From: an uncultured Pelagibacteraceae bacterium
GTDB taxonomy: Bacteria; Pseudomonadota; Alphaproteobacteria; Pelagibacterales; Pelagibacteraceae
Reading direction: 5' to 3'
DNA: 64,000 bases
NCBI GenBank assembly: GCA_902571055.1
Contig: CACGAM010000002.1
Coordinates: 62,001 to 126,000 of the forward strand
The notes under the pieces were generated by a model. It was given only the letters and a program-made list of their open reading frames with translations. It was not told the origin of the DNA and did not search any database. Both the position numbers and the translations under genes were made by a program. Shown piece by piece: positions 21,455 to 54,075 of the stretch; the first letter of the stretch is position 1, and the number at the start of each line of letters is the position of its first letter.

Positions 21455-22390
21455 TTGGAAAAAAAACAAAAAATCGTCGCTGTACAAGCCAACAATTTAA
21501 GTACAATAAAAATTAATACAGATACAACTTTTTTATTATGTTTAGAAGCTCAAAGAAGAGGATTTAGAATATTTTGGTACAATACAAATCAATTAACACT
21601 AAATAATAAAAAGGTAACTGCAAACGGTTTTTTTATAAAATTATTAGAAAATAAAAAAAAATTTTATATTAAGATTAAAAATCTAGAGCTTGATCTTTCC
21701 AAAGCCAAATATCTATTAATAAGACAAAATCCACCATTTAACCTGGAATATATTAATTCAACTCTATATTTAGAAAAATTATCTTCACATACTAAAATCA
21801 TAAATAATCCCATTTCCATAAGAAATATTTCTGAAAAATTCTATTCCTCAAGATTTTTTAGATACATGCCACCTACAATTTTTACTAAAGATATAAACAA
21901 AATAAATAAATTTTATAAGAAGTATAAACAATTAGTTATAAAACCGATTAATGGTTATGCTGGAAAAGATATTATGTTTATAAATAAAAATTTTAATAAA
22001 AAACGTGTTTCATTATATTTAAAGAAAATTGGACATGCTATGATACAAAAATTTTTACCAATGGTAAAAAAGGGTGATAAAAGAGTTTTTATAATTAATG
22101 GGAAAGTTTGTGGAGCTATCAAACGTGTTCCCTCTAAAAACTCAATTTTATCTAATTTATCACAAGGAGGCACAGCAATTAATACAACATTAAATTTAAA
22201 TGAGTTAAAAATAGCAAAGATTGTTGCTAAAGATTTACATAAAAATAACATATATTTTGCAGGAATAGATTTTGTTTCTGGTAAATTAATAGGTGATATA
22301 AACGTAACTTCTCCAACCGGACTTCCTCAATTTAAGCAACTTACTGGAAAAGACTTGTCTAAATATTTTTGGAATGGGCTAATAAACTAA
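21455..22390 (+). CDS. gshB: Glutathione synthase (ATP-grasp)
   Basis: [45 protein letters not shown]; likely TTG start at 21455, 1 nt after gshA. Confidence 0.8.
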
Positions 22391-24075
22391 AATAAACCCT
22401 CTGTCTCACCTCTTTTATTTAATTTGATTTTATCAGCAGCTGGAACTCTTGGTAATCCAGGCATAGTCATTATTGAGCCGCATACAACAACAATAAAATT
22501 AGCCCCAGATGATAATCTTACCTCTCTTATAGGTATTTCATGATTCTGTGGTGCTCCTTTAAGTTTGGGGTCTACGGAGAAACTATATTGAGTCTTTGCA
22601 ATACAAACTGGTAAATTACCGTATCCATTTAATTCGAACTTTCTTAAATCATTTTTTACTTCAGTTGGAGCAGTTACAGCTTTTGCACCATAAATTTCTT
22701 TAGCTATTTTCTCTATTTTTTTCCAAGGAGATAATTTTTCAGCATACAAATATTTAAAATTATTTTTATTTGAATTTTTACAAATTTTAATAACTTTTTT
22801 TGCTAAGTCGGTTGCTCCTTTACCTCCATTGGCCCAGTGAGAACTGACACTAACTTCAACACCAATGTTATCGCAGAATTTTTTAATTTCCTTAATTTCA
22901 TTGTTTGTATCTAATACAAAGTGATTTATTGCAACTACGGGCTCTAAACCAAATTTTTTTATATTAGAAATATGCCTCTCAAGGTTTACTATACCTTTCT
23001 TTAATGCAGGAATATTTTCTTTTTTTAAATTATCTTTTTCTAAACCTCCATGCATCTTCAGAGCTCTTACAGTTGCTACTATTACAACACAGCTTGGGAC
23101 TAGTTTTGATTTTCTACATTTTATATTTAAAAATTTTTCAGCCCCTAAATCAGCTCCAAAACCAGCTTCCGTGACTACATAATCTGATAACCTCAAAGCA
23201 GTTTTAGTAGCTATCACAGAATTACAACCATGAGCAATATTCGCAAATGGCCCTCCATGAATTATAGCAGGGTTATGTTCTAGAGTTTGAGTTACATTCG
23301 GTCTAAGAGCCTCTTTCAAAAGTACGGTCATGGGTCCATGGGCGTTTAAATCTTTAGCATAAATTGGCTTATTTTGCCTGTTGTATGCAATTGTAATATT
23401 CCCAATTCTATTTTCTAGGTCTTTCAAATCATTTGCTAAACAAAAGATTGCCATAACTTCAGAAGCCACTGTAATATCAAAACCATCTTGCCTTAAGTAA
23501 TTTTTTGCTACACCTTTTGTATTAATATTTATAAATCGTAAAGCTCTATCATTCATATCTAATACTCTTTTCCAAACAATACGGTTTTCATCAATATTTA
23601 ATTTATTACCCCAATAAATATGATTATCAATAAGAGCAGATAATAAATTATGTGCAGAAGTTATTGCATGAAAATCTCCTGTAAAATGAAGATTGATTTG
23701 TTCCATTGGAACTACTTGTGCATAACCGCCACCTGCTGCACCTCCTTTCATTCCGAAAGATGGTCCCAAGCTAGGCTCTCTTAAACATACTATACTTTTT
23801 TTTCCAATTTTATTTATGCCATCTGATAAACCTACAGAAGTAGTTGTTTTTCCTTCACCAGCTGGTGTTGGTGAAATTGCAGTGACTAAAATTAAATTAC
23901 CTTCTTTTTTATTTTTTAATCTTTTAAGATATTCAAAATTTATTTTGGCAATATGTCTACCCATGGGGCTAAACGCTTCTGGTTTATCTGGAACTCTCAG
24001 TTTTGTTAAAATTTTTTTAATAGGTTTTAGCTTTGCTTTTCTCGCAATTTCAATATCTGATTTAAATTTGCTCAT
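22387..24075 (-). CDS. fhs: Formate-tetrahydrofolate ligase
   Basis: [40 protein letters not shown]. Confidence 0.95.
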
Positions 24076-28362: not shown

Positions 28363-28530
28363 ATGACAAAAAAATTAAATAATCTTGATAAAGATCACAA
28401 GCATGAAGAATTAAACAATATATGCGAAAACTGCAGCATAGAAAATGAAACAGTTTATCAAAATTTAATACTTACTGGTTTTAAAGTTTGTGAGTCATGC
28501 AGAATATCGAAAACTATATATCCAGTCTAA
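28363..28530 (+). CDS. 55-aa putative zinc-ribbon protein (CENC...CESC)
   Basis: Hand-translated: MTKKLNNLDKDHKHEELNNICENCSIENETVYQNLILTGFKVCESCRISKTIYPV; two CxxC knuckles; stop interlocks with the convergent gene. Confidence 0.6.
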   Translation: MTKKLNNLDKDHKHEELNNICENCSIENETVYQNLILTGFKVCESCRISKTIYPV

Positions 28531-29072
28531 ACAGAGTTTCCCACTGGTAATGCACTCATCCTGCTCATAACAAAAGATACAGATAAAAACACAATTATTA
28601 AAAAGGATAGGAAAATAATTCCAAAAGATTTAAAGTTTGATTTAATATTTAGTACTTGTTTAGTTGATATTATTAATGAGGCAAATATCCAAAACTGTGT
28701 TAAAAAAATTACAGGAATAACAAGTTCAGGTGTAACTGCAAAAAACCTTATTAATCCTGGTGAATGAGCGTATCCGACAGATACCAAAATTTTTTTAAAG
28801 GGAACTTTTTGATCTTTATCTGGAAAAATCTTTACACCAATCACAAAAATAAATATTGACCAGAGAAACCATGTTAAAATTGCTGTCAATCCAGATAGAC
28901 CTATAGAAGTTTTAATTATTGTATTCGCTGCTACAGCACCTGCAACACCATCAAGTATCATTATTAATCCTGCAAAATAAATTGCAGCTTCACCAAAATA
29001 TTTATTATCTTTGTAAAGAGATTTATCCAGTTTTAAAGATTTAAAAAAAATATTTAAAAACTCTGCTAGCAT
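28527..29072 (-). CDS. YIP1-family-like integral membrane protein
   Basis: 181 aa, multiple TM helices, YIP1-like layout. Confidence 0.6.
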   Translation of the reverse strand: MLAEFLNIFFKSLKLDKSLYKDNKYFGEAAIYFAGLIMILDGVAGAVAANTIIKTSIGLSGLTAILTWFLWSIFIFVIGVKIFPDKDQKVPFKKILVSVGYAHSPGLIRFFAVTPELVIPVIFLTQFWIFASLIISTKQVLNIKSNFKSFGIIFLSFLIIVFLSVSFVMSRMSALPVGNSV

Positions 29073-29083
29073 TTTTAAATAAA

Positions 29084-30442
29084 TTATCCTTTTACTACTT
29101 CTCTCGTATTAGCATTATAAGACTCTGTAAAAGGTATATCGACAACTACTGCATCGACAGGCTCTCCTGGTTTTTCGGAATATTTCTCTGGCAAATGAAT
29201 TTTATACTTTGATCCTGGTTTACCTTTAGGAAAGCCATTTGCATTTAAAGTTCCATCATAAGGAACATATCCCATTGCAATATTTGTTTTTTTTTCTGGG
29301 TGATACCAAGGTGAGGTAATAAAACCTATTGGTTCACCTCCACCTTCTCCAGATACTAGCCAAAAATCTGGTGCGTATTCTTCTATTGGCTTTCCTCCTA
29401 GTTCCATTCCAACTAATTGAAGTTTGTATGGTTTTTTTCCATCTCTTATTTCATCTCTCATTTGTTCAAGGACCTTTTTACCAACATAGTCTGATTTTTT
29501 ATTCCACTCACCTTTACCAGATAAAGAGACTTGATATCCTAAATTACACTGAAAAGGATTGTGTTGGTAATCCATGTCTTGTCCCCAAGATAGGATTCCA
29601 GCTTGTATTCTTCTATGATGCGCAGGTGCAATTACCATCAGCTTGTGTTTCTTTCCAGCTTCAAGTACTGCATTCCACATATCTTCAGCATATAGTGTAG
29701 ACTCCCTTAAATAAATTTCGTAGCCAGCCTCACCAGAAAAACCAGATTGTGAGATAACACAACTTCTTCCTCCAACTTTTGCTTCAGCCAGTCCATAAAA
29801 CGGCATATTATCAAAGTCTACGTGGTCACCACATAAATCCTGCATTAACAACTTTGACTTTGGACCCTGTATTTGAACAGGAGATACATCAATCTCTTCT
29901 ATTTCACAATTAAATCTTCCATCACAGTTAACGCCTTGTAAATACAAAGATATATCACTGTCAGATAAACTAAACCAAAACTCATCTTTAGAAATTCTTA
30001 ATAAAATTGGATCATTCAAAACACCACCATACGCATTACATAGAATTACGTATCTAGCTCTCATAGGAGAAATTTTAGTAGCATCCCTAGTAATTACATA
30101 ATCAACAAACTTTTCTGCTTCTGGACCTTTTACTCTTATTTGTCTTTCAACAGCAACGTTCCACATAGTTACGTGATTTTTAATTGCATCATATTCAACC
30201 ATAGCACCGCCATCCTCTGGTTTTACATATCCTCTTGGATGATAAATTCTATTATATACTGTTGCTCTCCAACAACCTGCTTGCATTGATAAATGCCAAT
30301 AAGGTGATTTTCTTACCCTTGTTGATATCAACATTTCTACTTTTGTTGGTCCACTTTGTCTTAAATTGTATGGTACTTTTCTATCTGACTGATCTACTGA
30401 CGTTATGTGTCTTACTTTGTTATAATCAAACTCTTTAGACAT
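29084..30442 (-). CDS. GcvT/DmdA-superfamily tetrahydrofolate-dependent methyltransferase (demethylase), substrate unknown
   Basis: VTMWNVAVERQIRVKGPEAEKFVDYVITRD, GGVLNDPILLRISKDEFWFSLSDSDI, SGFSGEAGYEIYL; resembles DmdA but with N- and C-terminal extensions (452 aa). Confidence 0.8.
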   Translation of the reverse strand: MSKEFDYNKVRHITSVDQSDRKVPYNLRQSGPTKVEMLISTRVRKSPYWHLSMQAGCWRATVYNRIYHPRGYVKPEDGGAMVEYDAIKNHVTMWNVAVERQIRVKGPEAEKFVDYVITRDATKISPMRARYVILCNAYGGVLNDPILLRISKDEFWFSLSDSDISLYLQGVNCDGRFNCEIEEIDVSPVQIQGPKSKLLMQDLCGDHVDFDNMPFYGLAEAKVGGRSCVISQSGFSGEAGYEIYLRESTLYAEDMWNAVLEAGKKHKLMVIAPAHHRRIQAGILSWGQDMDYQHNPFQCNLGYQVSLSGKGEWNKKSDYVGKKVLEQMRDEIRDGKKPYKLQLVGMELGGKPIEEYAPDFWLVSGEGGGEPIGFITSPWYHPEKKTNIAMGYVPYDGTLNANGFPKGKPGSKYKIHLPEKYSEKPGEPVDAVVVDIPFTESYNANTREVVKG

Positions 30443-31163
30443 AATTATTCTCCATCAACCATTTGTTGGTTTCTTTAAGTCCTCCAAAAGTATAAATATG
30501 AAAGTGATCTGTATGATCTTTTAATTTTCCTATTATATCGTTAGGGTCCTTAGGTCTCATTAAATCTAATGCCTTACTAAAATTAGATTTAAGAAAGTTT
30601 ATGGAATTTTTTGCACCAACAATATTAGCAAATTTAATTAAACTTGTAATTTTTAGTGGCCCAGTAATTCCTACATGAACTGGTACTGTCTGCTTAGAAA
30701 TAAAATCTATTATTGGCTGAGGATCTAACAACCATTGTGTAACAATATAATCAGCATAAGGCTTTTTATCTTGCATAGCTTTTTCTAATTCTGAATCGGA
30801 TATATCAGGACTCCCCTCTGGATGTCCAGCAATTCCTATTTTTAATCCTTCAAAATACCCTGTCTCTAATAATTGAATTGAACTCTCGAATTTACCTACA
30901 GGTTCTCTACTGCCCCCAATGACTAGGCACTGTTTAACACCTAGGTCTTTGCACATATCAATATACTCTTTTAGATGATTATTATTCTCAATTGATCTAG
31001 CTGGTATATGGGGTATTGGATTACATCCCTTTCTAACCAACTCTCCTGCTTTTTCAGCTGTTTCTTTGTGATCTCCACCCGGTAGAAAAGTAATATAGAC
31101 ATCTTTTAATGCTGGAATTGTATCTATATCTGTCTTAGGACCAATTTCTAAAGAAAAATTCAT
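30435..31163 (-). CDS. Methylenetetrahydrofolate reductase (MetF)-like protein
   Basis: TFLPGGDHKETAEKAGELVRKGCNPIPHIPARSI, GIAGHPEGSPD; overlaps the GcvT-like gene. Confidence 0.75.
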   Translation of the reverse strand: MNFSLEIGPKTDIDTIPALKDVYITFLPGGDHKETAEKAGELVRKGCNPIPHIPARSIENNNHLKEYIDMCKDLGVKQCLVIGGSREPVGKFESSIQLLETGYFEGLKIGIAGHPEGSPDISDSELEKAMQDKKPYADYIVTQWLLDPQPIIDFISKQTVPVHVGITGPLKITSLIKFANIVGAKNSINFLKSNFSKALDLMRPKDPNDIIGKLKDHTDHFHIYTFGGLKETNKWLMENNYV

Positions 31164-31224
31164 TAGTCAATTCTTATTTATTTTATAAAGCCTGTCTATA
31201 AAAATCGTTTGTGAATGGGTGAGA

Positions 31225-32106
31225 CTATTTTTTTTGTCCTCTATGCTTTTGTATCCTCTGACCGTACTGTTGGGTTACCCTATCAAATATAATTGCCAAA
31301 GCTACAATTGCCAGTCCATTCATCAATCCTGAGGCTAAATACTGATTAGAAATAGCTTGTAATATTGGAATTCCTAATCCTTTAACCCCGATCATAGAAG
31401 CAATTACAACCATTGCTAATGCCATCATAATAGTTTGATTAACCCCTGCAAAAATAGTAGGCAAAGATAAAGGTATTTGTACTGTTCTTAACTTCTGCAT
31501 GGTAGTAGCACCAAAAGCCTCACTTGCCTCTAATGTCTCTTTGTCTACCTCTCTTATTCCCAAATTTGTTAATCTAACAATGGGTGGTAATGCATAAACA
31601 CAAACAGCTAATAACCCTGGAACTTTACCTATCCCCAGAAGCATAATAATTGGAATTAGGTAAACAAAACTGGGGATTGTTTGCATCATGTCCAAAATGG
31701 GTAATATAGCTTTCTCAGCTCTATTAGATTTAGACATTAAGATACCAATTGGAATTCCAACAGCAACACAAACTAATGTAGCTACAGAAATTATAGCTAC
31801 TGTAGCCATACAATTTTTCCACATTCCAAAGTAACCTATTACTAAAAAGCTTAAAACTGTTCCTAAGGCTAGTTTATAACTTCTAGAACCAACCCATGCT
31901 AAGAACCCAAAAGCAAAAATTACTATTGGCCACGGGGCACCAACTAATAATTTTTCTAACCAAATTAAAAATGACAACAATGGATCAAAAAAGCTTTCGA
32001 TCCCATCACCGTATTCTCTTGAAAATTCTTTAAAATTTTGATCAATTCCTTTTTTTAAATCACGAAGTGATTGTCTATCCATTACTGGAATTTTGTTGAA
32101 ATCCAT
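31225..32106 (-). CDS. Glycine betaine/proline-type ABC transporter permease (ProW/OpuAB-like)
   Basis: MQTIPSFVYLIPIIMLLGIGKVPGLLAVCVYALPPIVRLTNLGIREV signature region. Confidence 0.9.
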   Translation of the reverse strand: MDFNKIPVMDRQSLRDLKKGIDQNFKEFSREYGDGIESFFDPLLSFLIWLEKLLVGAPWPIVIFAFGFLAWVGSRSYKLALGTVLSFLVIGYFGMWKNCMATVAIISVATLVCVAVGIPIGILMSKSNRAEKAILPILDMMQTIPSFVYLIPIIMLLGIGKVPGLLAVCVYALPPIVRLTNLGIREVDKETLEASEAFGATTMQKLRTVQIPLSLPTIFAGVNQTIMMALAMVVIASMIGVKGLGIPILQAISNQYLASGLMNGLAIVALAIIFDRVTQQYGQRIQKHRGQKK

Positions 32107-32120
32107 TTTAAGATAATACT

Positions 32121-32152
32121 ACAAACGAGCCTGTTAATACAGGCTCGTTTGT
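32121..32152 (-). promoter_or_regulatory. Perfect 14-bp intergenic stem-loop (ACAAACGAGCCTGT-TAAT-ACAGGCTCGTTTGT), no U-tract
   Basis: Read directly from sequence; lies between binding-protein and permease genes on the minus strand. Confidence 0.8.
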
Positions 32153-32163
32153 TAGATTTATTT

Positions 32164-33183
32164 TTATAAACCAATACCTTTTCTAATTTTATCTGCCGTA
32201 GATTTAGGTACCCATTTTGACCATACTTCTGGATATCTTACCAAAAACTCAACAGCTGCATCTGCTCCATCAGCTTGTTGCTCAGCCATATAAACTAACA
32301 TACCGTTCATAACGTCTCCAGGGTATGTTCTTTTTTTGAAATAGTTCATACCAGCTTTACCTGCTGAACTTTTATAGTTATCAGATACTACAGTAAATAC
32401 CTCTGATTTTACCCAAGATGATTTTTTTGGACTTGCACATTCCTGTTCAGGTTTTGATAAACAGTTATCCCAATTATCTTTACCTGCATACTCGCCCATA
32501 TCAACAGCTTGTAAGTTATATTTTCCAACTAATGAAGTTGGTGACCAATAATAACCAAACCAGTTTTCACCTCTTTCAGCAGCTTTTGCGATTGAACCGT
32601 CTAAACCTGCAGCTGAACCTGTTTCAACTATTGCCCAACCTTTAGCTTCCATTTCCCATGCTCTAAAATGGTTTCTGTTACTCAATTCACAGTTCCATCC
32701 TGGAGGACAGATATGAAAACCACCTTTAGACGGATCTTCTGGATGTGGGAACAGATCAGGTCTTTTTAAAATCTCATCTGCTGATGTAAGCTCAGGATGT
32801 TTTGCTAAAGTGTGTGGAAGTACCCACCAACCTTCACCTAAACCTGTAATTGGAGCCTTGTTAATAGAGTGTAATCTTCCTTCTTTAACAGCAGCCTCTA
32901 ACTCAACAATTGCTGCATTAGCCCAAAATTCTGGTGCAACATCGGGCTCACCTTTTTCTTGCATAGAAGTAAAGGTAGGCATTGTTGCTCCAGGCACTAG
33001 TTCAACGTTACAACCAAACCCTTCTTCTAAAATAACTTTATCTACCTCAGCCATAAAATTTGCTGAAGCCCAGTTCATATTTGCAATGGTTATGTCTCCG
33101 CATTCTGCATTAGCAGACACATTATATGAATTAAAACCAAGAACAAATAGAGCTGAAATTAGTATTTTTTTTATTATTTTCAT
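32164..33183 (-). CDS. Glycine betaine/quaternary amine-type ABC substrate-binding protein (ProX/OpuAC-like)
   Basis: Signal peptide; GDITIANMNWASANFMAEVDKVILEEGFGC; EPDVAPEFWANA; OpuAC fold pattern. Confidence 0.88.
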   Translation of the reverse strand: MKIIKKILISALFVLGFNSYNVSANAECGDITIANMNWASANFMAEVDKVILEEGFGCNVELVPGATMPTFTSMQEKGEPDVAPEFWANAAIVELEAAVKEGRLHSINKAPITGLGEGWWVLPHTLAKHPELTSADEILKRPDLFPHPEDPSKGGFHICPPGWNCELSNRNHFRAWEMEAKGWAIVETGSAAGLDGSIAKAAERGENWFGYYWSPTSLVGKYNLQAVDMGEYAGKDNWDNCLSKPEQECASPKKSSWVKSEVFTVVSDNYKSSAGKAGMNYFKKRTYPGDVMNGMLVYMAEQQADGADAAVEFLVRYPEVWSKWVPKSTADKIRKGIGL

Positions 33184-42951: not shown

Positions 42952-43422
42952 TTATTTTTTTAATTTTGATAAAAATTTTAAATTATCGATTTTAAAATTA
43001 TCTTTATGCTTTAATATATATTCATCCATTATTTGAACTTTCTCTTTTTCAAATTCTGCTACTTTTCTTTCAGCTAAATCTACATATAGAGATAACGCCT
43101 CAATTGTTGATGCAACATATTTTTTCTCACTATGAACCATTTCAAGCTTATATAGAATCCTTTTTTTATCATGATCACAAAAAGTTAAATTAACCTCAAC
43201 CTCATCACCTTCTTGGACCTCTTGGTTATATGTAATATGGGACTCAACAACCATAGTACTCTTTTTTGTATTTTTGGCTGACTCTTCACCCATTTTAAAT
43301 AATGTCATTAATTCTTCTGATCCATATTGATCAAAAATCAAGACATAATATGCTACATTCATATGGCCATTGTAATCGGTCCACTCTTTTTTAATTTTTT
43401 GTTTAGTTAAAAATATACTCAT
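42952..43422 (-). CDS. Hotdog-fold acyl-CoA thioesterase, candidate betainyl-CoA thioesterase
   Basis: KKEWTDYNGHMNVAYYVLIFDQYGSEEL thioesterase motif; position next to carnitine-type genes. Confidence 0.78.
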   Translation of the reverse strand: MSIFLTKQKIKKEWTDYNGHMNVAYYVLIFDQYGSEELMTLFKMGEESAKNTKKSTMVVESHITYNQEVQEGDEVEVNLTFCDHDKKRILYKLEMVHSEKKYVASTIEALSLYVDLAERKVAEFEKEKVQIMDEYILKHKDNFKIDNLKFLSKLKK

Positions 43423-44276
43423 TGATTTATTTTATCTGCTACTAATATTCTTCTTTTCATTTCTCTAAGTACAGGTTTTTCAATCAATTTACCGTCTATA
43501 ACAACTAGCCCTGTATCAGAAGCATTAAATTGATCTATAATTCTTTTAGCTTTTATTATTTCTTCATTAGATGGTGTAAAAACTTCATTTAAAATATTAA
43601 TTTGTTTAGGGTGAATAGACCCTTTGCCTGTGAAGCCTAAATTTCTAACAAGTTCTGCCTCTTTTTTCATTCCATCCATATCTTCTAGATCTAAATAGGG
43701 AACATCTATAACATCAATTCCAACACTTGCTCCGGCGTGTACCAATTTAGATCTTGCATAAATAAGATTTTCATAACTATTTGGAACTCTTAGCTCTGCA
43801 GCCATATCAACTCCTCCAAAATACAATGCAACAATTCTTTTACTTGCATGAGCAATATCATAAATATTTTCAAGAGCCTCATTTGTTTCCATTATAACAT
43901 GAAGATCAGTATCCAAGTTACAATCAGTTAATAAATCATCAATGAAAGTTATCTCATCCGGCGTTTTGACTTTTGGTAGCATTAAAGCTTTGACATTTAA
44001 CTTACTTGAAATAAAAGCCTCTAAATCTAAAAGGCCAGGTTTAGTCCTTTGACAATTCACTCTTACAACTAGTTCAACATCGTTATTAATTTTCAAATTT
44101 TTTAATGCATTAATTGTATTTTTTCTCGCTTCATCCTTATCTTTAATGGCAATTCCATCCTCTAATTCAATGCAGACCATATCTGCACCAGAGGCTAGCG
44201 CTTTTGGGAACATTTCTGGGTTCAGACCAGGTGTAAAAATAAAGCTACGTCGTACTTTTATTTTATTTAAATCCAT
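43419..44276 (-). CDS. HpcH/HpaI-CitE family CoA-ester lyase
   Basis: RRSFIFTPGLNPEMFPKALASGADMVCIELEDG, GFTGKGSIHPKQI. Confidence 0.88.
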   Translation of the reverse strand: MDLNKIKVRRSFIFTPGLNPEMFPKALASGADMVCIELEDGIAIKDKDEARKNTINALKNLKINNDVELVVRVNCQRTKPGLLDLEAFISSKLNVKALMLPKVKTPDEITFIDDLLTDCNLDTDLHVIMETNEALENIYDIAHASKRIVALYFGGVDMAAELRVPNSYENLIYARSKLVHAGASVGIDVIDVPYLDLEDMDGMKKEAELVRNLGFTGKGSIHPKQINILNEVFTPSNEEIIKAKRIIDQFNASDTGLVVIDGKLIEKPVLREMKRRILVADKINQ

Positions 44277-44334
44277 TTAATTATTATACCCTATAATTTT
44301 AGATAATTTGATATTATACTTCTAATAAATTAAA

Positions 44335-45219
44335 ATGAACAATAAAGTATTTATCTCATGTGCAGTAACAGGATCTGGTGACACTGCTAGCAAACATCCT
44401 GATTTACCAAAAACTCCAGAGCAAATTGCAAAAGCTTCAATAGAGGCAGCAAAAGCTGGGGCCGCAATTGCGCATATTCATGTAAGAGAGGAGGATGGAA
44501 CTCCTAGTAGAAGATTAGAACTTTATAAAGAAGTTGTTGATAGAGTCAGATCTTCAGATACAGATGTTGTTCTTAATTTAACCACAGGGATGGGAGGAGA
44601 CCTTGATATCGGAGAAAAAAATCCCTTAGAGTTTGGCCCACTAACTGACATGATCAATGTGATGGAAAGAATTGCAAATGCAGAACAATTTCTACCAGAA
44701 ATATGCACATTAGATTGTGGAACCTTAAATTTTGGCGATGGATCTGTTATTACAGTTAATACACCAAGAGATCTAAGAAGGGCTGCAAAAAAATTACAAG
44801 AAATAAAAGTAAAACCAGAAATCGAAGCGTTTGACCTTGGTAATATGTGGTTTGGAGCTCAGCTTTATCAAGAGGGTTTGTTAAGTGACCCACCAATGTT
44901 TCAAATGTGTTTAGGAATTCCATGGGGAGCACCTGCTACTCCATTAGCTATGCAAGCAATGAAAGACATCATGCCCAAGGAGGCTGTATGGTCTGGTTTT
45001 GCAATTTCAAGAAATGAAATGCCTTATGTTGCACAAACTGTTGTTATGGGAGGAAATCCAAGGGTTGGATTGGAAGATAATCTTTATATATCCAAAGGTA
45101 AGTTAGCTACAAACCCTCAATTAGTTGAGAAGGCTAGACGAATAGTTGAAGATTTAGGCGCATCCATCATGACGCCACAAGAAACAAGAGAGAAATTAAA
45201 ACTTGTAAAACACAAGTAA
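44335..45219 (+). CDS. Beta-keto acid cleavage enzyme (BKACE/DUF849), candidate 3-dehydrocarnitine cleavage enzyme
   Basis: AHIHVREEDGTPSRR metal motif; FDLGNMWFGAQLYQEGLLSDPPMFQMCLGIPWG; coupled to the LcdH-like gene. Confidence 0.85.
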   Translation: MNNKVFISCAVTGSGDTASKHPDLPKTPEQIAKASIEAAKAGAAIAHIHVREEDGTPSRRLELYKEVVDRVRSSDTDVVLNLTTGMGGDLDIGEKNPLEFGPLTDMINVMERIANAEQFLPEICTLDCGTLNFGDGSVITVNTPRDLRRAAKKLQEIKVKPEIEAFDLGNMWFGAQLYQEGLLSDPPMFQMCLGIPWGAPATPLAMQAMKDIMPKEAVWSGFAISRNEMPYVAQTVVMGGNPRVGLEDNLYISKGKLATNPQLVEKARRIVEDLGASIMTPQETREKLKLVKHK

Positions 45220-46163
45220 TGTCTAACATTAAAAACGTTGCCATAATAGGAACTGGAGTAATTGGAACTGGCTGGGTAATCAGATGCTTGGCCCACGATA
45301 AAAAAGTAAGAGCTTACGACTTTAATCTTAAACATAAAAAAAATTTAATTAAAGAAATTAAGAGGAGTTGGCCATTTGTAAAAAAAATGTTCAAAAAAAA
45401 AAAATTAAATTTACATAATCTGTCCTTTTACACAAATTTACATGATGCTCTGATAAAAGCAGAATTTATCTTTGAATGTGCTCCTGAAAATTATACTATA
45501 AAAACAAAACTTATGAAAAAGATTGGTTTATATTCTAAACCAAACAGTATTATATCTTCAAGTTCCTCTGGCCTGCTTCCATCCAAAATATACTCAAAGT
45601 GTAAACATCCTGAAAGAGGCTTGATAGGTCATCCATTCAATCCAGTATACTTATTACCAGGTATTGAAATTGTACCTGGAAAAAAAACGAAAAAATTATT
45701 TTTAATAAAAGCTAAAAAATTTTATGAGTCAATTTCAATGAACCCAATTATGGTTAAGAAAGAATTACCAGGTTATTTAGCAGATAGGCTCCAAGAAGCC
45801 TTATGGAGAGAGGGTTTACACATAATTAATGAAAATTATGCAACCACAAAGGAATTGGATAGAGCAATTGAAGATGGACCAGGATTGAGATATTCACTTA
45901 TGGGAACATTTTTAACTTTTCACCTTGCAGGTGGAAAGCAAGGAATGAAACATATGTTAAGACAATTTGGACCAGCATTAAAATTACCTTGGACTAAGTT
46001 AAAAGCTCCAAAACTTACAAAAAAGCTATCTGATAGAATAATTAAAGGTACACAGAGACAGGCGAGGGGTAAATCTGTGGCAAAATTAGCTGATATAAGA
46101 GATGATTATCTAATTAATCTACAAATTTTAAGAAACAAATACTTAAAGAAAATTAGAAATTAA
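45219..46163 (+). CDS. 3-hydroxyacyl-CoA dehydrogenase family, candidate L-carnitine dehydrogenase
   Basis: IGTGVIGTGWVIRCLAHDKKVRAYD; FECAPENYTIK; GHPFNPVYLLPGIEIVPG. Confidence 0.82.
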   Translation: MSNIKNVAIIGTGVIGTGWVIRCLAHDKKVRAYDFNLKHKKNLIKEIKRSWPFVKKMFKKKKLNLHNLSFYTNLHDALIKAEFIFECAPENYTIKTKLMKKIGLYSKPNSIISSSSSGLLPSKIYSKCKHPERGLIGHPFNPVYLLPGIEIVPGKKTKKLFLIKAKKFYESISMNPIMVKKELPGYLADRLQEALWREGLHIINENYATTKELDRAIEDGPGLRYSLMGTFLTFHLAGGKQGMKHMLRQFGPALKLPWTKLKAPKLTKKLSDRIIKGTQRQARGKSVAKLADIRDDYLINLQILRNKYLKKIRN

Positions 46164-46570
46164 TGGAAAAAAAGTTTGTAAATAAAAAAGGTGGATGTAT
46201 TTGTGGTGCTGTTGAATTTAATGTTACTTTAGACGAGCTTCCAAGAGTTTTTAGTTGTCATTGTATAGACTGTAGAAAAAAAATAGGTGGTATTATGTCA
46301 ATCATAGAACTACGTAAAGATGCTATAGATATAAACAAATCATTATTATCTACCTACGAACATATAGGAGGTAGTGGAAATAAAATTACCAAATATTTTT
46401 GTGGTAAATGTGCAGCACCAGTATTAACTTTTGTCGACAGATGGAAAAAATTTTACCTTTATGCAGGATTACTTGATGATATTAGTATTTTGAAAAAAGC
46501 CAAAAATATTTATTTTGAAGACTCACATTTTCCATTTATGGAGATATCGGAAAAAGATTTAAAACTCTAA
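46163..46570 (+). CDS. GFA-family protein (glutathione-dependent formaldehyde-activating-like, CENP-V/GFA fold)
   Basis: GGCICGAVEFNV, FSCHCIDCRKK, YFCGKCAAPV zinc Cys pattern. Confidence 0.85.
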   Translation: MEKKFVNKKGGCICGAVEFNVTLDELPRVFSCHCIDCRKKIGGIMSIIELRKDAIDINKSLLSTYEHIGGSGNKITKYFCGKCAAPVLTFVDRWKKFYLYAGLLDDISILKKAKNIYFEDSHFPFMEISEKDLKL

Positions 46571-46635
46571 ATCATGTGGCAACATGTACCAAAAATCTTT
46601 ATTGATTGATAAAAATTTAATAATATATAGACATC

Positions 46636-47073
46636 ATGAAATTAATTCCAAAAGTACTTTTTTATGTCCTTTTAAGTTCTCTTTTCACAATGAAAGCTTT
46701 TTCTGAGACTTTAGAAATAGAAATGCTTAACAAATCGGGCAATGAAATGATGGTTTATTCGCAAAAAGTATCTAAAATTAACGTTGGGGATACAATAATT
46801 TGGAAATCAACAACTAAGGGTCATAATGTAGAATTCATCAAAAATGGAACTCCAGATGGTGTTGAGAAGTTCAAATCAAAGATGAACGTGGATGTAGAAT
46901 ACACTTTTACTATTCCAGGAATTTATGCATATCAGTGTACACCACATAAAGCTATGGGCATGATAGGTTTTGTTGTAGTGGGTGGAGACAAGTCTAACCT
47001 TGATAAAATAAATTCTTTAAGATTTGTTGGAAAATCAAAAAAAATTGCACCTGAATTAATTGGACAACTTTAA
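46636..47073 (+). CDS. Pseudoazurin-like cupredoxin
   Basis: Signal peptide; type I Cu ligands in GHNVEF and YQCTPHKAMGMIGFVVVG. Confidence 0.88.
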   Translation: MKLIPKVLFYVLLSSLFTMKAFSETLEIEMLNKSGNEMMVYSQKVSKINVGDTIIWKSTTKGHNVEFIKNGTPDGVEKFKSKMNVDVEYTFTIPGIYAYQCTPHKAMGMIGFVVVGGDKSNLDKINSLRFVGKSKKIAPELIGQL

Positions 47074-47074
47074 T

Positions 47075-47863
47075 TTAATCAAGTCTAAGTTCATTACCAT
47101 TAACACCTATTACCTGACCTGAAATTCTTTCAGAATCGTTTGATGCTAAAAATGCACACATTTTAGCAACGTCATCACCATATATCCAACTTTTCATTGA
47201 TGACATTTTTAGAAAATCATTTTCAACTTTTTTTTTAGAAACCTTAAGAAACTTAGCTTTATTTTCTATTACTTTTACCATTCTATTTCCTTTAATGGTG
47301 CCTGGACAAATAGCATTCACTCTAATTTTATATCTTCCTAACTCCATAGCTAAAGTTTTTGTAATTCCTATTACCGCCCATTTACTCGCTGCATATGGAG
47401 ATCTTAAAGGAAAACCTAGTACCCCAGCCCCTGATGATATATTTATTATTGAACCACTTTTATTCTTTTTTAATAAAGGTATTGCAAGTTTAGTAAAATA
47501 AAAATGACTTATAACATTTGTTTTTAAGGTTTGCTCCCAGTCTTTAGATGTGAGTTTTTCGAGTGTTCCAGTTGGCCCAGCTATACCAACATTATTAATT
47601 AGACAATCAATTTTTTTAAATTTTAATGAAATAGATTTAAAAAAATTACTTACATCATTCTCATTAGCGGCATCAAAATTATATAAAAATAAACTTTTTT
47701 TATAATTAGGGTTTTTTTTTAGTTTATTAATAAATTTTTTATCTATATCTGTTACTAATACAGTTGCACCTCTATCTAAACAGGTTTTGGTTGTTGCTAG
47801 TCCTATTCCAGATGCACCAGCTGAAATAACTATTTTTTTGTTCTTTAATGATTTATTTTGCAT
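47075..47863 (-). CDS. SDR family oxidoreductase
   Basis: SAGASGIGLATTKT, NNVGIAGPTG, YAASKWAVIGITK. Confidence 0.92.
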   Translation of the reverse strand: MQNKSLKNKKIVISAGASGIGLATTKTCLDRGATVLVTDIDKKFINKLKKNPNYKKSLFLYNFDAANENDVSNFFKSISLKFKKIDCLINNVGIAGPTGTLEKLTSKDWEQTLKTNVISHFYFTKLAIPLLKKNKSGSIINISSGAGVLGFPLRSPYAASKWAVIGITKTLAMELGRYKIRVNAICPGTIKGNRMVKVIENKAKFLKVSKKKVENDFLKMSSMKSWIYGDDVAKMCAFLASNDSERISGQVIGVNGNELRLD

Positions 47864-47865
47864 AC

Positions 47866-48891
47866 CTAAGACTTGGTGAGTGTCTTCTGCAGTTCTTTCT
47901 TTGTTATATAACCTTTAATATTTCCACTTTTATCTACTACTTCACAGCTAGAATTTGTACCAACAACTTGTGGTAAAAACTCTTCTATAAATTGGTCTTC
48001 TTTTACTTTTATAATATTATTTTTATCAATTCCATTCACATTTTCTTCAGATATCATAATAGTTTTTGCTTTTATAACTTTGGTCCTGTTAACATCTTTT
48101 ACAAATGCCTTAACGTAATCGTCAGCAGGGTTCATTATAATATCAAAAGGAGTTCCCACCTGTACTAGCTTTCCATGATTTAAAATTCCAATATGGTCCC
48201 CAAGTCTTAATGACTCGTCTAGATCGTGTGTAATAAAAACTATAGTTTTTTTTAATTCTGACTGAAGATCTATCAATTGTTTTTGCATATCACTTCTAAT
48301 TAAAGGGTCTAATGCCGAAAATGCTTCATCCATTAACATTATGTCAGTATCATTTGCTAATGCTCTAGCCAAACCAACTCTTTGTTGCATTCCACCTGAT
48401 AATTGTGCTGGATATTGATTTTCAAACCCACTTAAACCTACGGCTTCAATTTTTTCCATGGCTGTTTTTTTTCTTTCTGCCTCAGCTACTCCTTGCATTT
48501 CTAGTCCATAACCAACATTATCCATCACTGTCCTGTGTGGAAATAAACCGAATCTTTGAAAGACCATACTCATTTTGTGTCTTCTAAACTCTATCAATTG
48601 TTGTTTGTTTAAACTCATTACATTAGTACCCTCAACTATTATTTCTCCATCTGTTGGATCGATAAGTCTATTAAGGTGTCTTATTAGGGTTGATTTTCCC
48701 GATCCAGACAAGCCCATGCACACAAACGTTTCTCCCTCTTCAATTTTTAATGAAACATTGTCTAACCCAACCGTATGTCCAGTTTTGTCAAGAATTTCCT
48801 CTTTAGATGCTCCATCCTTAACCATAGGGAGAATTGACTTAGGATTGTTGCCAAATATTTTATATACGTTATTTATTTCTATTTTGGACAT
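47866..48891 (-). CDS. Glycine betaine/proline-type ABC transporter ATPase (ProV-like)
   Basis: GLSGSGKSTLIRHLNRLIDPT Walker A, QLSGGMQQRVGLARAL, MLMDEAFSALDPLIR; C-terminal CBS-like tail. Confidence 0.93.
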   Translation of the reverse strand: MSKIEINNVYKIFGNNPKSILPMVKDGASKEEILDKTGHTVGLDNVSLKIEEGETFVCMGLSGSGKSTLIRHLNRLIDPTDGEIIVEGTNVMSLNKQQLIEFRRHKMSMVFQRFGLFPHRTVMDNVGYGLEMQGVAEAERKKTAMEKIEAVGLSGFENQYPAQLSGGMQQRVGLARALANDTDIMLMDEAFSALDPLIRSDMQKQLIDLQSELKKTIVFITHDLDESLRLGDHIGILNHGKLVQVGTPFDIIMNPADDYVKAFVKDVNRTKVIKAKTIMISEENVNGIDKNNIIKVKEDQFIEEFLPQVVGTNSSCEVVDKSGNIKGYITKKELQKTLTKS

Positions 48892-48958
48892 TTAAATGAC
48901 TTTGTAACAGTTGATTTTGCATCTTGCAAATTTTAGTATTTTAAATAATTATTGTTTT

Positions 48959-50092
48959 ATGGCTGAAATAAAGAAGCTAGAGAAAAATAATACTTATTTA
49001 AAAGTTCTTTGGTCTGATGGAGAAGAAAGTAAGTTTAATTATTTATGGCTTAGAGATAACTGTCCAACTGCTCATGATAAAGATTCTAATCACAGAATGT
49101 TTAATATACTTAATGTAAGTAAAGAAATTAATCCTAAAAATTACAATATTAATAAAGAGGGTAAACTTGAGATTGAGTGGAGCGAGGGCAATCATACAAG
49201 TTATTTTGACTTAAATTGGTTAAGAGAAAATTGTTACACAATTAAAAATAAAAAAAAATATATTTCACCTTATAAATTGTGGGATAGTTCCCTTAAAGAG
49301 GAATTTAAATCTATATGTGTTGAACATGATGAAATAATGGAAAGTAACAATGGATTAATTAAATGGCTTGAATTGTTACATCACACTGGTATTGCAATTG
49401 TTAAAAACGCACCAATTGAAGAAAAATCTGGATTTGCAGTTCTAAACAGAATTAGTCATACCAGAGAAACTTTTTTTAAAACTCCATTTGAGGTTATAAA
49501 TATTCCAAAGCCTAATAACTCAGCATACACAGCTCATGCTTTGAGAAATCACATGGATTTACCCTGGTTTGAAAACCCACCTGGATATCAATTTTTACAT
49601 TGTTTAATTAATTCTGCAGACGGAGGAGAATCTTCAGCAGTGGATGGGTTTGCCGTCGCAGAGTATTTAAAACATAATAATAGCGAGATCTTTAATACTT
49701 TAACTAAGGTTTATTTAAAATTTAGGGATAAAGATTATACACAAGAAAATCATAGAGGTTTTCACGCGCCAGCTATAGGATTAACTAAAGATAGCGATTA
49801 TCATGATATAAGATTTAGTGTTGCTACGATGGATGCCTTAGACTGCCACCCAGATATTATGGACAAAGTTTACAAAGCTCATCATGAATTTGGAAATTTA
49901 CTACATAGCGATAAGTTTCAAATTAATTTTAGAATGGAACCAGGTGATATATTTTCCTTTAATAATAGAAGAGTCTTGCATGGTCGAACTGCATTTGACC
50001 CAAATTCAGGTCACAGACATTTACAAGGATATTATATGGATAGAGATGAAATTATCGGAAGATTAAATTACTTGAAAAAATTAAAATCATAA
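48959..50092 (+). CDS. Gamma-butyrobetaine dioxygenase-like Fe(II)/2OG oxygenase (N-terminal DUF971-like domain)
   Basis: N-terminal WSDGEESKFNYLWLRDNCPTAHD, HMDLPWFENPPGYQFLHCL, FNNRRVLHGRTAFDPNSGHRHLQGYYMDRD; start trimmed to ATG 48959. Confidence 0.87.
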   Translation: MAEIKKLEKNNTYLKVLWSDGEESKFNYLWLRDNCPTAHDKDSNHRMFNILNVSKEINPKNYNINKEGKLEIEWSEGNHTSYFDLNWLRENCYTIKNKKKYISPYKLWDSSLKEEFKSICVEHDEIMESNNGLIKWLELLHHTGIAIVKNAPIEEKSGFAVLNRISHTRETFFKTPFEVINIPKPNNSAYTAHALRNHMDLPWFENPPGYQFLHCLINSADGGESSAVDGFAVAEYLKHNNSEIFNTLTKVYLKFRDKDYTQENHRGFHAPAIGLTKDSDYHDIRFSVATMDALDCHPDIMDKVYKAHHEFGNLLHSDKFQINFRMEPGDIFSFNNRRVLHGRTAFDPNSGHRHLQGYYMDRDEIIGRLNYLKKLKS

Positions 50093-50725
50093 ATTTTCAA
50101 ACATAAGATTATAATTCTTATTATATTTCAAAAATTCTTTTTTATTTTTAATGGTATAAAAATATTTATTTTTTTTAATATTTCGTATGGATTTGTTACT
50201 TATAAAAAATTTATCTAAAATTAAGTACTCATAATTTTTTTTAAATGATGCTTTTATAATATCTGAAATTTTAGAGCTCTTAGAGAATGAAAAACCGATT
50301 TTTACTTTTTTGTTAATTTTGCGAATTTTAACCAAATTTGTATGTTTAAAAGATATAATTATACAATTCTTATAGTTTTTAATTTCATTTAATAATATTT
50401 TAATATTTCTCAAGTTCAATATTGGTTTAATCTCTATAAAAACTAAATATTTTTTTTTAGATAGCTTTAATACATCTTTCAATAATGGGATTGAAATTTT
50501 TGATTTTGTCTTATTTTTAATCTCATCGTAATGAAGATTTTTAACACTTTTGTTTATCTTAAATAATCTATTTAATGTAAAATCATGAAAACATATTATT
50601 TTGTTATCTTTAGTAAAATGAATGTCTGTTTCTATTCCATACTTTTTATTAAATGATACCTTAAAAGATTTTAAACAATTTTCTTTGAGTTTTTTATTAG
50701 CTATTCCTCGGTGAATTATATTCAT
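50087..50725 (-). CDS. Glycerophosphodiester phosphodiesterase (GDPD) family
   Basis: IHRGIANKKLKENCLKSF, GIETDIHFTKDNKIICFHDFTLNRL. Confidence 0.87.
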   Translation of the reverse strand: MNIIHRGIANKKLKENCLKSFKVSFNKKYGIETDIHFTKDNKIICFHDFTLNRLFKINKSVKNLHYDEIKNKTKSKISIPLLKDVLKLSKKKYLVFIEIKPILNLRNIKILLNEIKNYKNCIIISFKHTNLVKIRKINKKVKIGFSFSKSSKISDIIKASFKKNYEYLILDKFFISNKSIRNIKKNKYFYTIKNKKEFLKYNKNYNLMFENL

Positions 50726-50781: not shown

Positions 50782-51786
50782 TTATGGAAGCCAACTTTTC
50801 CATTTATTTGGATTGTTTTTCTTCCACTCTGCTACAACTTCTTTAAGATCTCTGTTCTTTTGCTTAACTTCAACTAACATTACTGCTTGATCAGCATTAT
50901 CAAATTTCATTTTTGTGAAAAATTTAGCTGCATCAGCATGTTCTGCTTTAGCAAATGTTTCAGGATTACCGTAGTTCATTGTGTAGTCTTTAGCCCAACC
51001 AGTTGCTGGCCATGCTGCAGTTCCACAATCTTTCCAGTTATTCGCCTCAGTAAATGAGTCACAAGTTTTGTGTTCTGGAAGTCCTACTCCTACCATGTCA
51101 TAAGCCCCAAAGAACCAATGAGGTTGCCATAGATATAATAAGAATGGCTCTTTTCTCTCATATGCTGCAACAGCTTCTGCTATGGCAGCAGCTTCTGTTC
51201 CTAACTCATCTGCTTGAAAGTCAATTCCTAAAAGATCTAATCTTTTTTGATCATGACAGTTCCAACCAGCTACAGGACATCCAATTAGTCTTCCTCTTTT
51301 TCCTGACTCAATTGTTGCAAACTTATCTTTGTGTTTGTTTAAATCTTTCCAAGATTTAATGCCGAATTTGTCAGCAGCATATTTTGGAATAAAGTAGTCA
51401 GACAAACCAATTATACCAGTTGTTCCAAGAAGTTTTACACTTCCGTCACCTTCATAATTAAACATTGTCTTACCATCATAAATCAGCGGACCTTTCATCA
51501 TTACAGTGTCAGCTTCCGCATAACTTGGCCAACTCTCGCAAGCAAAATCTATTTCACCAGCTGCGATTGCTTCCCAAAGTCCAGTTCCTGATGGGAATAC
51601 TACTCTTTTTATTTTGTATCCTAATTCATCTTCTAGAACACTAACAGCAACTTGACACGTTATCTCTCCTCCTGTCCAGTCTGCTACTGCAGCTGTTAAT
51701 CTTTTAGCAGCATTTGCAGTTCCAAAACTAGAAATAACAAGGATCAAAGAAAGCATCATTGCTGATAACTTTTTAGATATATTCAT
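50782..51786 (-). CDS. Glycine betaine-type ABC substrate-binding protein (ProX/OpuAC-like), second copy
   Basis: Signal peptide; ADWTGGEITCQVAVSVLEDELGYKI, FACESWPSYAE, GCPVAGWNCHDQKR. Confidence 0.88.
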   Translation of the reverse strand: MNISKKLSAMMLSLILVISSFGTANAAKRLTAAVADWTGGEITCQVAVSVLEDELGYKIKRVVFPSGTGLWEAIAAGEIDFACESWPSYAEADTVMMKGPLIYDGKTMFNYEGDGSVKLLGTTGIIGLSDYFIPKYAADKFGIKSWKDLNKHKDKFATIESGKRGRLIGCPVAGWNCHDQKRLDLLGIDFQADELGTEAAAIAEAVAAYERKEPFLLYLWQPHWFFGAYDMVGVGLPEHKTCDSFTEANNWKDCGTAAWPATGWAKDYTMNYGNPETFAKAEHADAAKFFTKMKFDNADQAVMLVEVKQKNRDLKEVVAEWKKNNPNKWKSWLP

Positions 51787-51799
51787 TATTGTTTTCCCC

Positions 51800-51819
51800 T
51801 TAATTAATTAATTAATTAA
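51800..51819. repeat. Short TTAA tandem repeat in the leader of the second binding-protein gene
   Basis: ttaattaattaattaattaa read directly. Confidence 0.85.
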
Positions 51820-51892
51820 ATCATTTTAAAACATAATAATACTTAATGTAAAGTTTTTAAATGTTGCGCTATTATACGTTATTTTATAAGGC

Positions 51893-54001
51893 TTATAGAC
51901 CTAAAGCCTCTCTTTGTTTTTTAGTCCAAGCTAATGAAATTCTGTCAATGATAATTGCCATAAGCACAATTCCAATACCAGCAGCCAATCCTCTTCCAGT
52001 ATCTGATCGTGCAAGTCCATTAAATACTTCTAATCCAAGGCCCTTTCCACCAATCAAAGGTGTAACAATTTGCATCGCAAAAGCCATAATAACTGTTTGA
52101 TTAAATCCTATAACTAAACTCGGAACTGCTAATGGAAATTTTACTTTATTTAAAGTTTGTAAAGTAGTTCCACCAAATGATCTTGAAACCTCTGAAAACG
52201 TCCCGGATACTTGCGTTAATCCAAGAGATGTTAATCTAATTATAGGAGGTATAGAATAAATCACAGTAGCAAGAACTGCAGAAACTATACCACCTCCAAA
52301 AAACATTAAAACTGGTATTAGATAACAAAAGTAAGGAAGAGTTTGCATCGCATCCAGTACAACATTTTGGATATTTTTAAATCTTGGATTATATGATGCA
52401 ATAATTCCTAATGGCACTCCAATGGCAAAGCATAAAGCAACCGAAACTAAAACAGATGATAGTGTTATCATTGATTGAGGCCAAATTCCACAAGCACCTA
52501 TAAAAAGAAGAAGTAATACAGTGATAAAAGCAAATCTTAATCCCACTGTAAAATATCCAATTAATGCAAATACTGCGGTTGTATACCACCATGGTGTATG
52601 TGTTAGAAAAGTATCAAGAGGGTTCAAAAGATTTAGATAAACGAATGCTCTTAAACCTTTTGTAAATGCAATAAATCCAGGATTTACTGTAAGTGATTTT
52701 ACAGTATCAGCAATTGGTTGTCTTATTGAGAGTTTCCATTCTTCTGGAAATGTTCCGATGCTGAAAATATTTGAATCTATAAAACTAATAATAAAAAAAA
52801 CAATAAATGAGGGAATGATATAGTATCTGTTACCAACAAATTCTCCAATATCTCTTCCTAAAGGCTTGTTAAACAAAGAAGTAATAAATTCTGCTACATA
52901 TGAAATTAAATTTGTAATTTTCTTACAAACTAAATTTATTATTGTGTGTGAATAACTTAAAGGTTTTTCAAAAATTCTGGCAATTTGAAATTTTTCCCAA
53001 CTTTGCGGTAAAAGATAAAATTTTTGAACATCCAAAGGTAGTCTTTCTTCCTCTTTGCTAAAAGACATACTAAATCTATCAAACATAATCGCCATAAACA
53101 AAATACACAAACCACCTTCCATAGCCCAACCAACATCTAAATTTCTAATAGCCAACCATACCTGTCCACCAATTCCTTCAGCCCCTATAAAACAGGCTAA
53201 AACTACAAGGGCCAAAGCCATCATTATAACTTGATTTATTCCCATCATTATACTTGGTAATGATAGAGGAATTTTAATTTTAAATAGCAACTGCAATCTA
53301 CTTGAACCAAATGAAGTTGCAGACTCGATAATCTGTTCCGAAACTTGTCTAATACCAGCGTTAGTTAATCTAATGACAGGTGGCATTGCATAGATCATTG
53401 TTGCTAAAATTGCTGGTGCGCCTCCTATCCCAAAAAAAAATAGCGCAGGAAAAAGATATACAAATGCTGGCATCACCTGCATTGTATCTAAAATAGGCTT
53501 CATAAAATTTTCAAATCTATCACTTTGTGAACACAGAACACCTAGTAAAACACCAAAGAAAACGCAAAGTACAACCGAAAGACCCATTAACGCTAAAGTC
53601 TGTAAAGATTCGTCCCACATGCCTACTCCTCCCCAGAAATAAATAACAAACAAAGAGTATAAACCTAGTCTTAAACCACCAGCTATTAGGCAGGGTAAAA
53701 ATAAAATTGATGCAATTAGTAACCAGGGAGATTCTATTAAAAAATCTTCTAAAAAATAATAACCAGATTTAATATAGCCTGCTATGATTTTAGTTATCCA
53801 CCTATAATTTTTTTTTAAGTAATCTTCTCCATCATTAACCCATGCAGTAAATGTAAACTCATCAGTAACAGATTTCGGAAATTTAGACTGTCCTTCACTT
53901 TGAATGGATAATACTAGTGCTCCCAAAAATATCAGTAAAACTGCAATATATTTAATAATATTCTTATTAGTTTTAGATTTATCTAATATTTCTGCAGACA
54001 T
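51893..54001 (-). CDS. Double-permease ABC transporter protein (fused tandem ProW domains)
   Basis: 702 aa with two copies of the signature: MQVMPAFVYLFPALFFFGIGGAPAILATMIYAMPPVIRLTNAGIRQV and MQTLPYFCYLIPVLMFFGGGIVSAVLATVIYSIPPIIRLTSLGLTQV. Confidence 0.92.
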   Translation of the reverse strand: MSAEILDKSKTNKNIIKYIAVLLIFLGALVLSIQSEGQSKFPKSVTDEFTFTAWVNDGEDYLKKNYRWITKIIAGYIKSGYYFLEDFLIESPWLLIASILFLPCLIAGGLRLGLYSLFVIYFWGGVGMWDESLQTLALMGLSVVLCVFFGVLLGVLCSQSDRFENFMKPILDTMQVMPAFVYLFPALFFFGIGGAPAILATMIYAMPPVIRLTNAGIRQVSEQIIESATSFGSSRLQLLFKIKIPLSLPSIMMGINQVIMMALALVVLACFIGAEGIGGQVWLAIRNLDVGWAMEGGLCILFMAIMFDRFSMSFSKEEERLPLDVQKFYLLPQSWEKFQIARIFEKPLSYSHTIINLVCKKITNLISYVAEFITSLFNKPLGRDIGEFVGNRYYIIPSFIVFFIISFIDSNIFSIGTFPEEWKLSIRQPIADTVKSLTVNPGFIAFTKGLRAFVYLNLLNPLDTFLTHTPWWYTTAVFALIGYFTVGLRFAFITVLLLLFIGACGIWPQSMITLSSVLVSVALCFAIGVPLGIIASYNPRFKNIQNVVLDAMQTLPYFCYLIPVLMFFGGGIVSAVLATVIYSIPPIIRLTSLGLTQVSGTFSEVSRSFGGTTLQTLNKVKFPLAVPSLVIGFNQTVIMAFAMQIVTPLIGGKGLGLEVFNGLARSDTGRGLAAGIGIVLMAIIIDRISLAWTKKQREALGL

Positions 54002-54075
54002 TATTACATTAAATTAAAACAAACTGTTTTACATTTAAAGAAAAATATTGTCTATTTTATTCATATAAATTTAGC

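Follow-up and report, generated by a model that had tools for sequence, protein, structure and literature searches.

Which compound is handled by the operon at positions 28527-33183 of a 64,000-nucleotide stretch of SAR11 DNA, and by what chemistry? The stretch (G000:C2:62001-126000, hereafter the window) comes from a single-cell genome that is approximately 82% complete, and the operon consists of five open reading frames (ORFs), all on the minus strand, encoding in order a substrate-binding protein (SBP), a permease, a MetF-like protein, an aminomethyltransferase-like protein (AMT) and a small membrane protein, with successive spacings of 57 bp, 61 bp, an 8-bp overlap (MetF/AMT) and 11 bp. 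An earlier note on this DNA had read these genes as a transporter-coupled operon for demethylation of a methylated osmolyte, perhaps not dimethylsulfoniopropionate (DMSP). Its five minus-strand genes and their order were all recovered as ORFs, the motifs that it quoted for AMT are present in the sequence, and Pfam profiles agree with its naming of a betaine-type binding protein, a permease and a DmdA/GcvT-like enzyme. We consider it probable that a betaine, glycine betaine (GBT) being the likeliest, is taken up and demethylated by the products of this operon, with AMT passing a methyl group to tetrahydrofolate (THF); it is the gene neighbourhoods in three distant groups that narrow the osmolyte to GBT.

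In the pathway that we infer, the SBP would capture GBT (and possibly DMSP too) and the permease would import it with the help of an ATPase encoded elsewhere. AMT would bind THF and methylate it at N5 with one of the methyl groups on the quaternary ammonium of GBT, yielding dimethylglycine and 5-methyl-THF much as DmdA demethylates the DMSP sulfonium. Next, the MetF-like protein would run in the oxidising direction, from 5-methyl-THF to 5,10-methylene-THF, with FolD and Fhs carrying methylene-THF onward to formate for energy, while enzymes of the DMGDH/sarcosine-oxidase type would take dimethylglycine through sarcosine to glycine. The same step, GBT to dimethylglycine, is performed by BHMT, GbcAB and the cobalamin-dependent MtgBCD (PMC12478193), which use homocysteine, O2 or cobalamin and, unlike AMT, do not belong to the GcvT family; the AMT route would be an alternative needing no homocysteine, O2 or B12.

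Conservation of the operon genes is far above chance. The named relatives of AMT come from Pelagibacteraceae (SAR11) single-cell genomes, one of them being 100% identical, and an orthologue is present in 52 of 61 related genomes (plus one fragment). MetF adjoins AMT in every SAR11 locus long enough to show it, and an SBP and permease lie upstream in 54 of the 73 loci of the window's genus that have enough upstream sequence. The genes are therefore kept together in relatives, a check that the earlier note had set, but its "transporter-coupled" holds in part of one SAR11 genus and elsewhere only MetF and AMT are constant: these two form the constant core of the operon, and the transporter does not belong to it. 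Within the window's genus, a divergently oriented BHMT homologue stands beside the operon in 39 of the 54 transporter-bearing loci and in 0 of the 19 without a transporter, accompanied by a DMGDH homologue in 38 of the 39 and by an enzyme of the old yellow enzyme (OYE) family in the remaining one; the best PDB matches of these neighbours are human BHMT for the BHMT homologue and DMGDH for the DMGDH homologue. This pair has been lost from, or is lacking at, the window's own locus, and no BHMT was found in the window's genome at its 82% completeness. In SAR11 family f2, an orthologous SBP-permease pair forms part of a complete operon with an ATPase, adjoining BHMT and DMGDH genes and/or genes of a carnitine route to GBT. 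Five SAR11 genomes that are at least 90% complete (G029, G033, G041, G042 and G043) have AMT and no BHMT.

Some further features of these SAR11 neighbourhoods were seen in passing. Two BHMT types, approximately 48% identical, occur in SAR11 (L021 and L159 versus G012:C1:419143-420168), one in the transporter/DMGDH neighbourhood and the other elsewhere; a BHMT of SAR11, SAR11_1173, is reported to lie behind a SAM-V riboswitch (PMC5069961). Genome G012 also carries near its metF-AMT pair (L093 4688-7763) a 281-aa match to the HalD/WelO5 Fe(II)/2-oxoglutarate halogenase family (47 bits) and a Rieske ring-hydroxylating oxygenase.

The betaine-catabolic context extends well beyond SAR11. Orthologues of AMT occur in scattered alphaproteobacteria at 65-83% identity, several of which carry SoxBDAG nearby. 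Fifteen genomes with AMT were compared, each with a completeness of 90% or more. In 8 of them the nearest DMGDH-like gene is no further than 5 kb from AMT (0.23 expected; P ~1e-11, a statistic that treats genomes as independent, which the SAR11 members are not), and in 12 it is within 20 kb (0.74 expected); for the 11 non-SAR11 genomes alone, the count within 5 kb is 7, against 0.14 expected. In three gammaproteobacteria (G407, G469 and G503), the locus comprises AMT, MetF (clear in two, and not called as an ORF in the third), Fhs, GbdR (scored in G503 at 500.8 bits, above the cut-off of 480), L-serine ammonia-lyase and a DMGDH-like FAD enzyme, which would together make up a GBT-to-pyruvate gene set. 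GbcA was not found in the complete genomes G469 and G503, and G407 has only a weak Rieske match. Haloarchaeal plasmids, among them the 406-kb plasmid of Haloarcula hispanica, encode an AMT 50-57% identical to that of the window, with MetF at 6 of 7 loci, together with DMGDH-like FAD enzymes, serine hydroxymethyltransferase (SHMT), FolD, Fhs and ilvA, and in one locus a BCCT betaine transporter. Anderson et al. (2011) had noted GBT as a possible substrate for haloarchaea that carry BCCT transporters and genes resembling dimethylglycine oxidase, naming no first enzyme (PMC3102087). A search of phages returned only weak AMT homologues, in unannotated or mis-binned records.

These neighbourhoods bear directly on the choice among betaines. 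Another quaternary ammonium compound (proline betaine, a carnitine or choline derivative, or another N-methylated osmolyte), broken down downstream by DMGDH/Sox-type enzymes, is an unlikely substrate for AMT, if the least unlikely of the alternatives: the neighbouring genes are generic for N-methyl removal, and both the carnitine genes of family f2 and a carnitine-monooxygenase-like Rieske protein in Haloarcula would suit it. However, GbdR, found in the gammaproteobacterial loci, is a regulator of GBT/choline catabolism, the adjoining BHMT acts on GBT, and the serine/glycine-processing genes SHMT, SdaA and ilvA match a GBT-to-pyruvate route.

The known enzymes for the first step of GBT breakdown are often missing where AMT is found. 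Across the 15 AMT-bearing genomes, DMGDH homologues are universal, MTTB/MtgB is absent from 14 (and present in one), GbcA exceeds its cut-off in none, and a clear BHMT is found in 7 and not in the other 8. Eight of the 15 genomes therefore have the later steps but no known first-step enzyme among the three looked for, although DMGDH could also obtain its substrate from imported dimethylglycine. On balance, we lean towards AMT being a B12- and O2-independent GBT:THF methyltransferase with a dedicated MetF, acting as the first aerobic GBT step in SAR11, other alphaproteobacteria, some gammaproteobacteria and haloarchaea.

Is AMT simply a DmdA? The two share a GcvT-type fold family, with THF as methyl acceptor in DmdA (SAR11_0246; PDB 3tfh) and presumably in AMT, but AMT is only 31-38% identical to DmdA, is approximately 80 residues longer, and is linked to betaine genes rather than DMSP genes. 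Against the curated DmdA profile NF009133 (cut-off 410 bits), AMT scores 228.6 bits, nonetheless its best NCBIfam match, whereas a bona fide DmdA encoded elsewhere in the window's genome scores 516.7 bits. A maximum-likelihood tree of 42 rows (the mis-extracted L194 was left out, and a mis-extracted L208 row in a later alignment was not counted as evidence) places AMT in a clade of its own (support 98/93), separate from the DmdA clade (100/100), and an approximately unbiased (AU) test rejects a grouping of AMT with DmdA (p=0.002). The DMSP-specific tryptophan of DmdA, W171 in PMC7487153, which we equated with W197 in 3tfh numbering from how far it lies from the Glu/Tyr pair, is replaced by Phe235 in AMT and by Phe throughout the AMT clade except in its most distant member, L158, which has Trp. 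In addition, H34 of DmdA corresponds to Arg65, this Arg/Phe signature being kept in alphaproteobacterial, gammaproteobacterial and haloarchaeal AMTs wherever the columns align, and D59 corresponds to Asn95 in proteobacterial AMTs, while the haloarchaeal ones retain Asp. The sub-cut-off score, separate clade and loss of the DMSP tryptophan thus rule out an identity of AMT with DmdA; a position inside the DmdA clade with the DMSP residues conserved was what the earlier note had named as refuting its reading.

AMT does contain a GCV_T folate-binding domain with both the catalytic Asp and the folate Glu: D144 (equivalent to D96 of Thermotoga maritima GcvT) and the folate pair E242/Y244 are conserved, as counterparts of Asp108, Glu204 and Tyr206 of DmdA. 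With these residues kept and those of the pocket altered, AMT appears to be a functional THF enzyme whose substrate pocket has changed. Other folate enzymes were considered and rejected. AMT misses the curated GcvT cut-offs (145 of 300, 129 of 236 and 113 of 459 bits), and its GCV_T_C match, at 23 bits, is slightly below the cut-off of 25.9. LigM/DesA O-demethylases and the trimethylamine N-oxide (TMAO) demethylase Tdm likewise use GcvT-superfamily folate domains in demethylation, but AMT scores far under their cut-offs, with 33.3 and 34.2 bits for LigM and DesA (580 and 800) and 136 bits for Tdm (1100). Homology to BHMT, MtgB/MTTB or GbcA was also excluded, as S-methyl_trans, MTTB and Rieske domains are absent and only GCV_T domains were found. 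An AlphaFold model built from an alignment of 29 close AMT homologues was unusable (pLDDT 45). Separately, we observed in family f2 a third DmdA-like paralogue near a DMGDH homologue (L096 11159-12295 and L111 4943-6085), which scores 354-372 bits, below the DmdA cut-off, yet keeps W197.

The transporter leaves the choice between a betaine and a sulfonium less clear. The only PDB match of the SBP is the DMSP-binding protein RnDmpX (7yle; E=1e-56, 35% identity), with which it shares an aromatic cage: of the eight ligand-pocket positions described for RnDmpX (PMC10030565), seven are identical (W, T, W, E, W, _, Y, W), and Ala153 is replaced by Asn. Its PF04069 match (148.6 bits) and this cage make the SBP a protein of the OpuAC/DmpX type; judging from its residues, the cage would fit GBT or DMSP, and cannot decide between them. 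The pocket identity, along with DmdA being the best NCBIfam match of AMT, is what speaks for AMT as a second demethylase of DMSP or of another sulfonium (gonyol or dimethylsulfoxonium propionate, DMSOP), fed by a DmpX-type DMSP importer. We regard this as improbable, however: the genome already encodes a bona fide DmdA elsewhere, AMT has Phe at W197 and Arg at H34 and falls in a separate clade, and the neighbours in the loci that were read are N-methyl genes, with betaine-like contexts in haloarchaea and gammaproteobacteria. The SBP, unlike RnDmpX, sits in a putative betaine-demethylation locus.

The constant MetF partner speaks to the product of the reaction. DMGDH-type enzymes yield methylene-THF directly and need no MetF, so a constant MetF partner fits methyl-THF as the product of AMT. 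The window's MetF-like protein resembles the PF02219 family as the earlier note had suggested, although at 22.2 bits it lies just below the gathering score of 24; it is 33% identical to the haloarchaeal MetF adjoining archaeal AMT, which reaches 51.5 bits. Fhs is adjacent to the AMT-MetF pair in gammaproteobacteria (where the orthologue scores 844.6 bits to NF010030) and lies beside metF in SAR11 family f2. The same oxidising role has been assigned to MetF2 of R. pomeroyi in the MtgBCD route (PMC12478193). The close linkage of AMT with DMGDH and SoxBDAG might instead suggest an accessory folate enzyme, loading one-carbon (C1) units or capturing formaldehyde for these neighbours and not itself a primary demethylase. 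There is little to recommend this, since DMGDH and SoxA already contain a GcvT-type folate domain of their own and the conserved MetF implies 5-methyl-THF as product, which DMGDH and SoxBDAG do not make.

Going by its published description, SAR11_1264-1265 of Ca. Pelagibacter ubique is the counterpart of the MetF-AMT pair; Sun et al. (2011) reported it as metF and an AMT of unknown substrate, guessing 3-methylmercaptopropionate (MMPA) from its kinship to DmdA and the adjacent metF (PMC3160333). An MMPA demethylase now seems highly improbable: MMPA is a neutral thioether with no onium group, later work routes it through DmdB/C (PMC5069961), no sulfur genes lie nearby, and the haloarchaeal orthologues occupy betaine/folate clusters. 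The earlier note's candidate for an "undescribed demethylase" stands in that we found no paper in the open-licence literature assigning a function to SAR11_1265, nor any description there of a THF-dependent GBT demethylase; the pair itself, however, was flagged in 2011 with another speculated substrate. What is new here is its gene context: the betaine setting, the transporter, and the gammaproteobacterial and haloarchaeal orthologues.

Several observations weigh against GBT as the substrate of AMT. BHMT also occurs in many SAR11 genomes, even adjoining the operon, and would make the AMT step redundant there. One gammaproteobacterium (G701) has both AMT and GbcA, and in Haloarcula marismortui a Rieske oxygenase with carnitine monooxygenase as its best PDB match lies between the FAD enzymes. 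The substrates of the DMGDH homologues may be other N-methylated compounds, and a sulfonium is a better methyl donor than a quaternary ammonium. The closest characterised SBPs bind DMSP (DmpX; PMC10030565). Finally, SAR11_1264-1265 mRNA drops 5-10 fold when cells are in stationary phase, whether or not sulfur is limiting (PMC5069961); this joint fall of the MetF and AMT messages indicates co-regulation and carries no information on the substrate.

Table 1. Features of the window that belong to, or may serve, the operon.
Feature	Position	Strand	Remarks
SBP, OpuAC/DmpX type, periplasmic, 339 aa	32164..33183	-	PF04069 148.6 bits
Perfect 14-bp stem-loop, SBP-permease gap	32121..32152	-	
ProW-like ABC permease, 293 aa	31225..32106	-	BPD_transp_1 96.1 bits; ProW model 262 bits
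Short divergent MetF homologue, SAR11_1264 type, 242 aa	30435..31163	-	PF02219 (MTHFR) 22.2 bits, E=1e-4
AMT, GcvT/DmdA superfamily, SAR11_1265 type, 452 aa	29084..30442	-	PF01571 (GCV_T) 136 bits
Small membrane protein, 181 aa	28527..29072	-	No Pfam family; behind AMT in most genus loci
Fhs, formate-THF ligase	22387..24075	-	Orthologues (54-65%) adjoin AMT-MetF pair elsewhere
Orphan ProV-like ABC ATPase	47866..48891	-	363 bits to TIGR01186; approximately 15 kb from operon

The operon contains no ABC ATPase and so falls short of a complete type I importer. Two ProV-like ATPases exceed the cut-off in the genome, both inside the window (47866-48891, minus strand; 54076-55122, plus strand). The former is 55-59% identical to the ATPase of the complete SBP-permease-ATPase operons of family f2, and the permease and SBP that locus L163 has between its ATPase and BBOX gene are both missing in the window. 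Lacking a permease and SBP of its own and being most like the f2 ATPase, it is the likely partner of the operon's transporter. In 51 of 51 relatives (L013-L092), the gap between the SBP and permease genes holds a hairpin of 8 bp or longer even as the hairpin sequence diverges, which suggests that it is kept by selection on structure; as in other importer operons, it may raise expression of the SBP over that of the permease, giving a high SBP:permease ratio.

No Rfam match to a riboswitch or other RNA, and no tRNA, was found in the window. The earlier label of YIP1-like for the membrane protein had to be dropped, as a Pfam search for a Yip1 domain was negative, with no match of any kind at E<0.001 and nothing significant at E<0.5. 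Around the orphan ATPase lies a carnitine-to-glycine-betaine-like cluster (43419-50725), with a BKACE-type cleavage enzyme at 44335 (below the curated cut-off), an L-carnitine dehydrogenase homologue at 45219 (337.5 bits, cut-off 414) and a gamma-butyrobetaine dioxygenase homologue at 48911 (314.5 bits, cut-off 415). It is followed by a second, complete quaternary-amine ABC set (50782-55122) of ProX-like SBP, 702-aa tandem permease and ProV-like ATPase, suggested to be a putative TMAO-type system.

GBT is a major nitrogen-containing osmolyte and among the commonest such solutes in the sea. The mechanisms of its first demethylation have been called elusive, and SAR11 has been proposed to use BHMT alone (PMC12478193). 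If our reading is true, an enzyme that depends on folate would free GBT use from its coupling to methionine synthesis without B12 or O2, and GBT methyl groups would feed C1 oxidation for energy. The fluxes of GBT, DMSP and C1 units would be read differently from ocean metagenomes, in which the AMT gene is at present recorded as "aminomethyltransferase" or DmdA-like. The missing first step would be supplied in haloarchaea, and the ocean's most abundant heterotrophs would have a second route beside BHMT.

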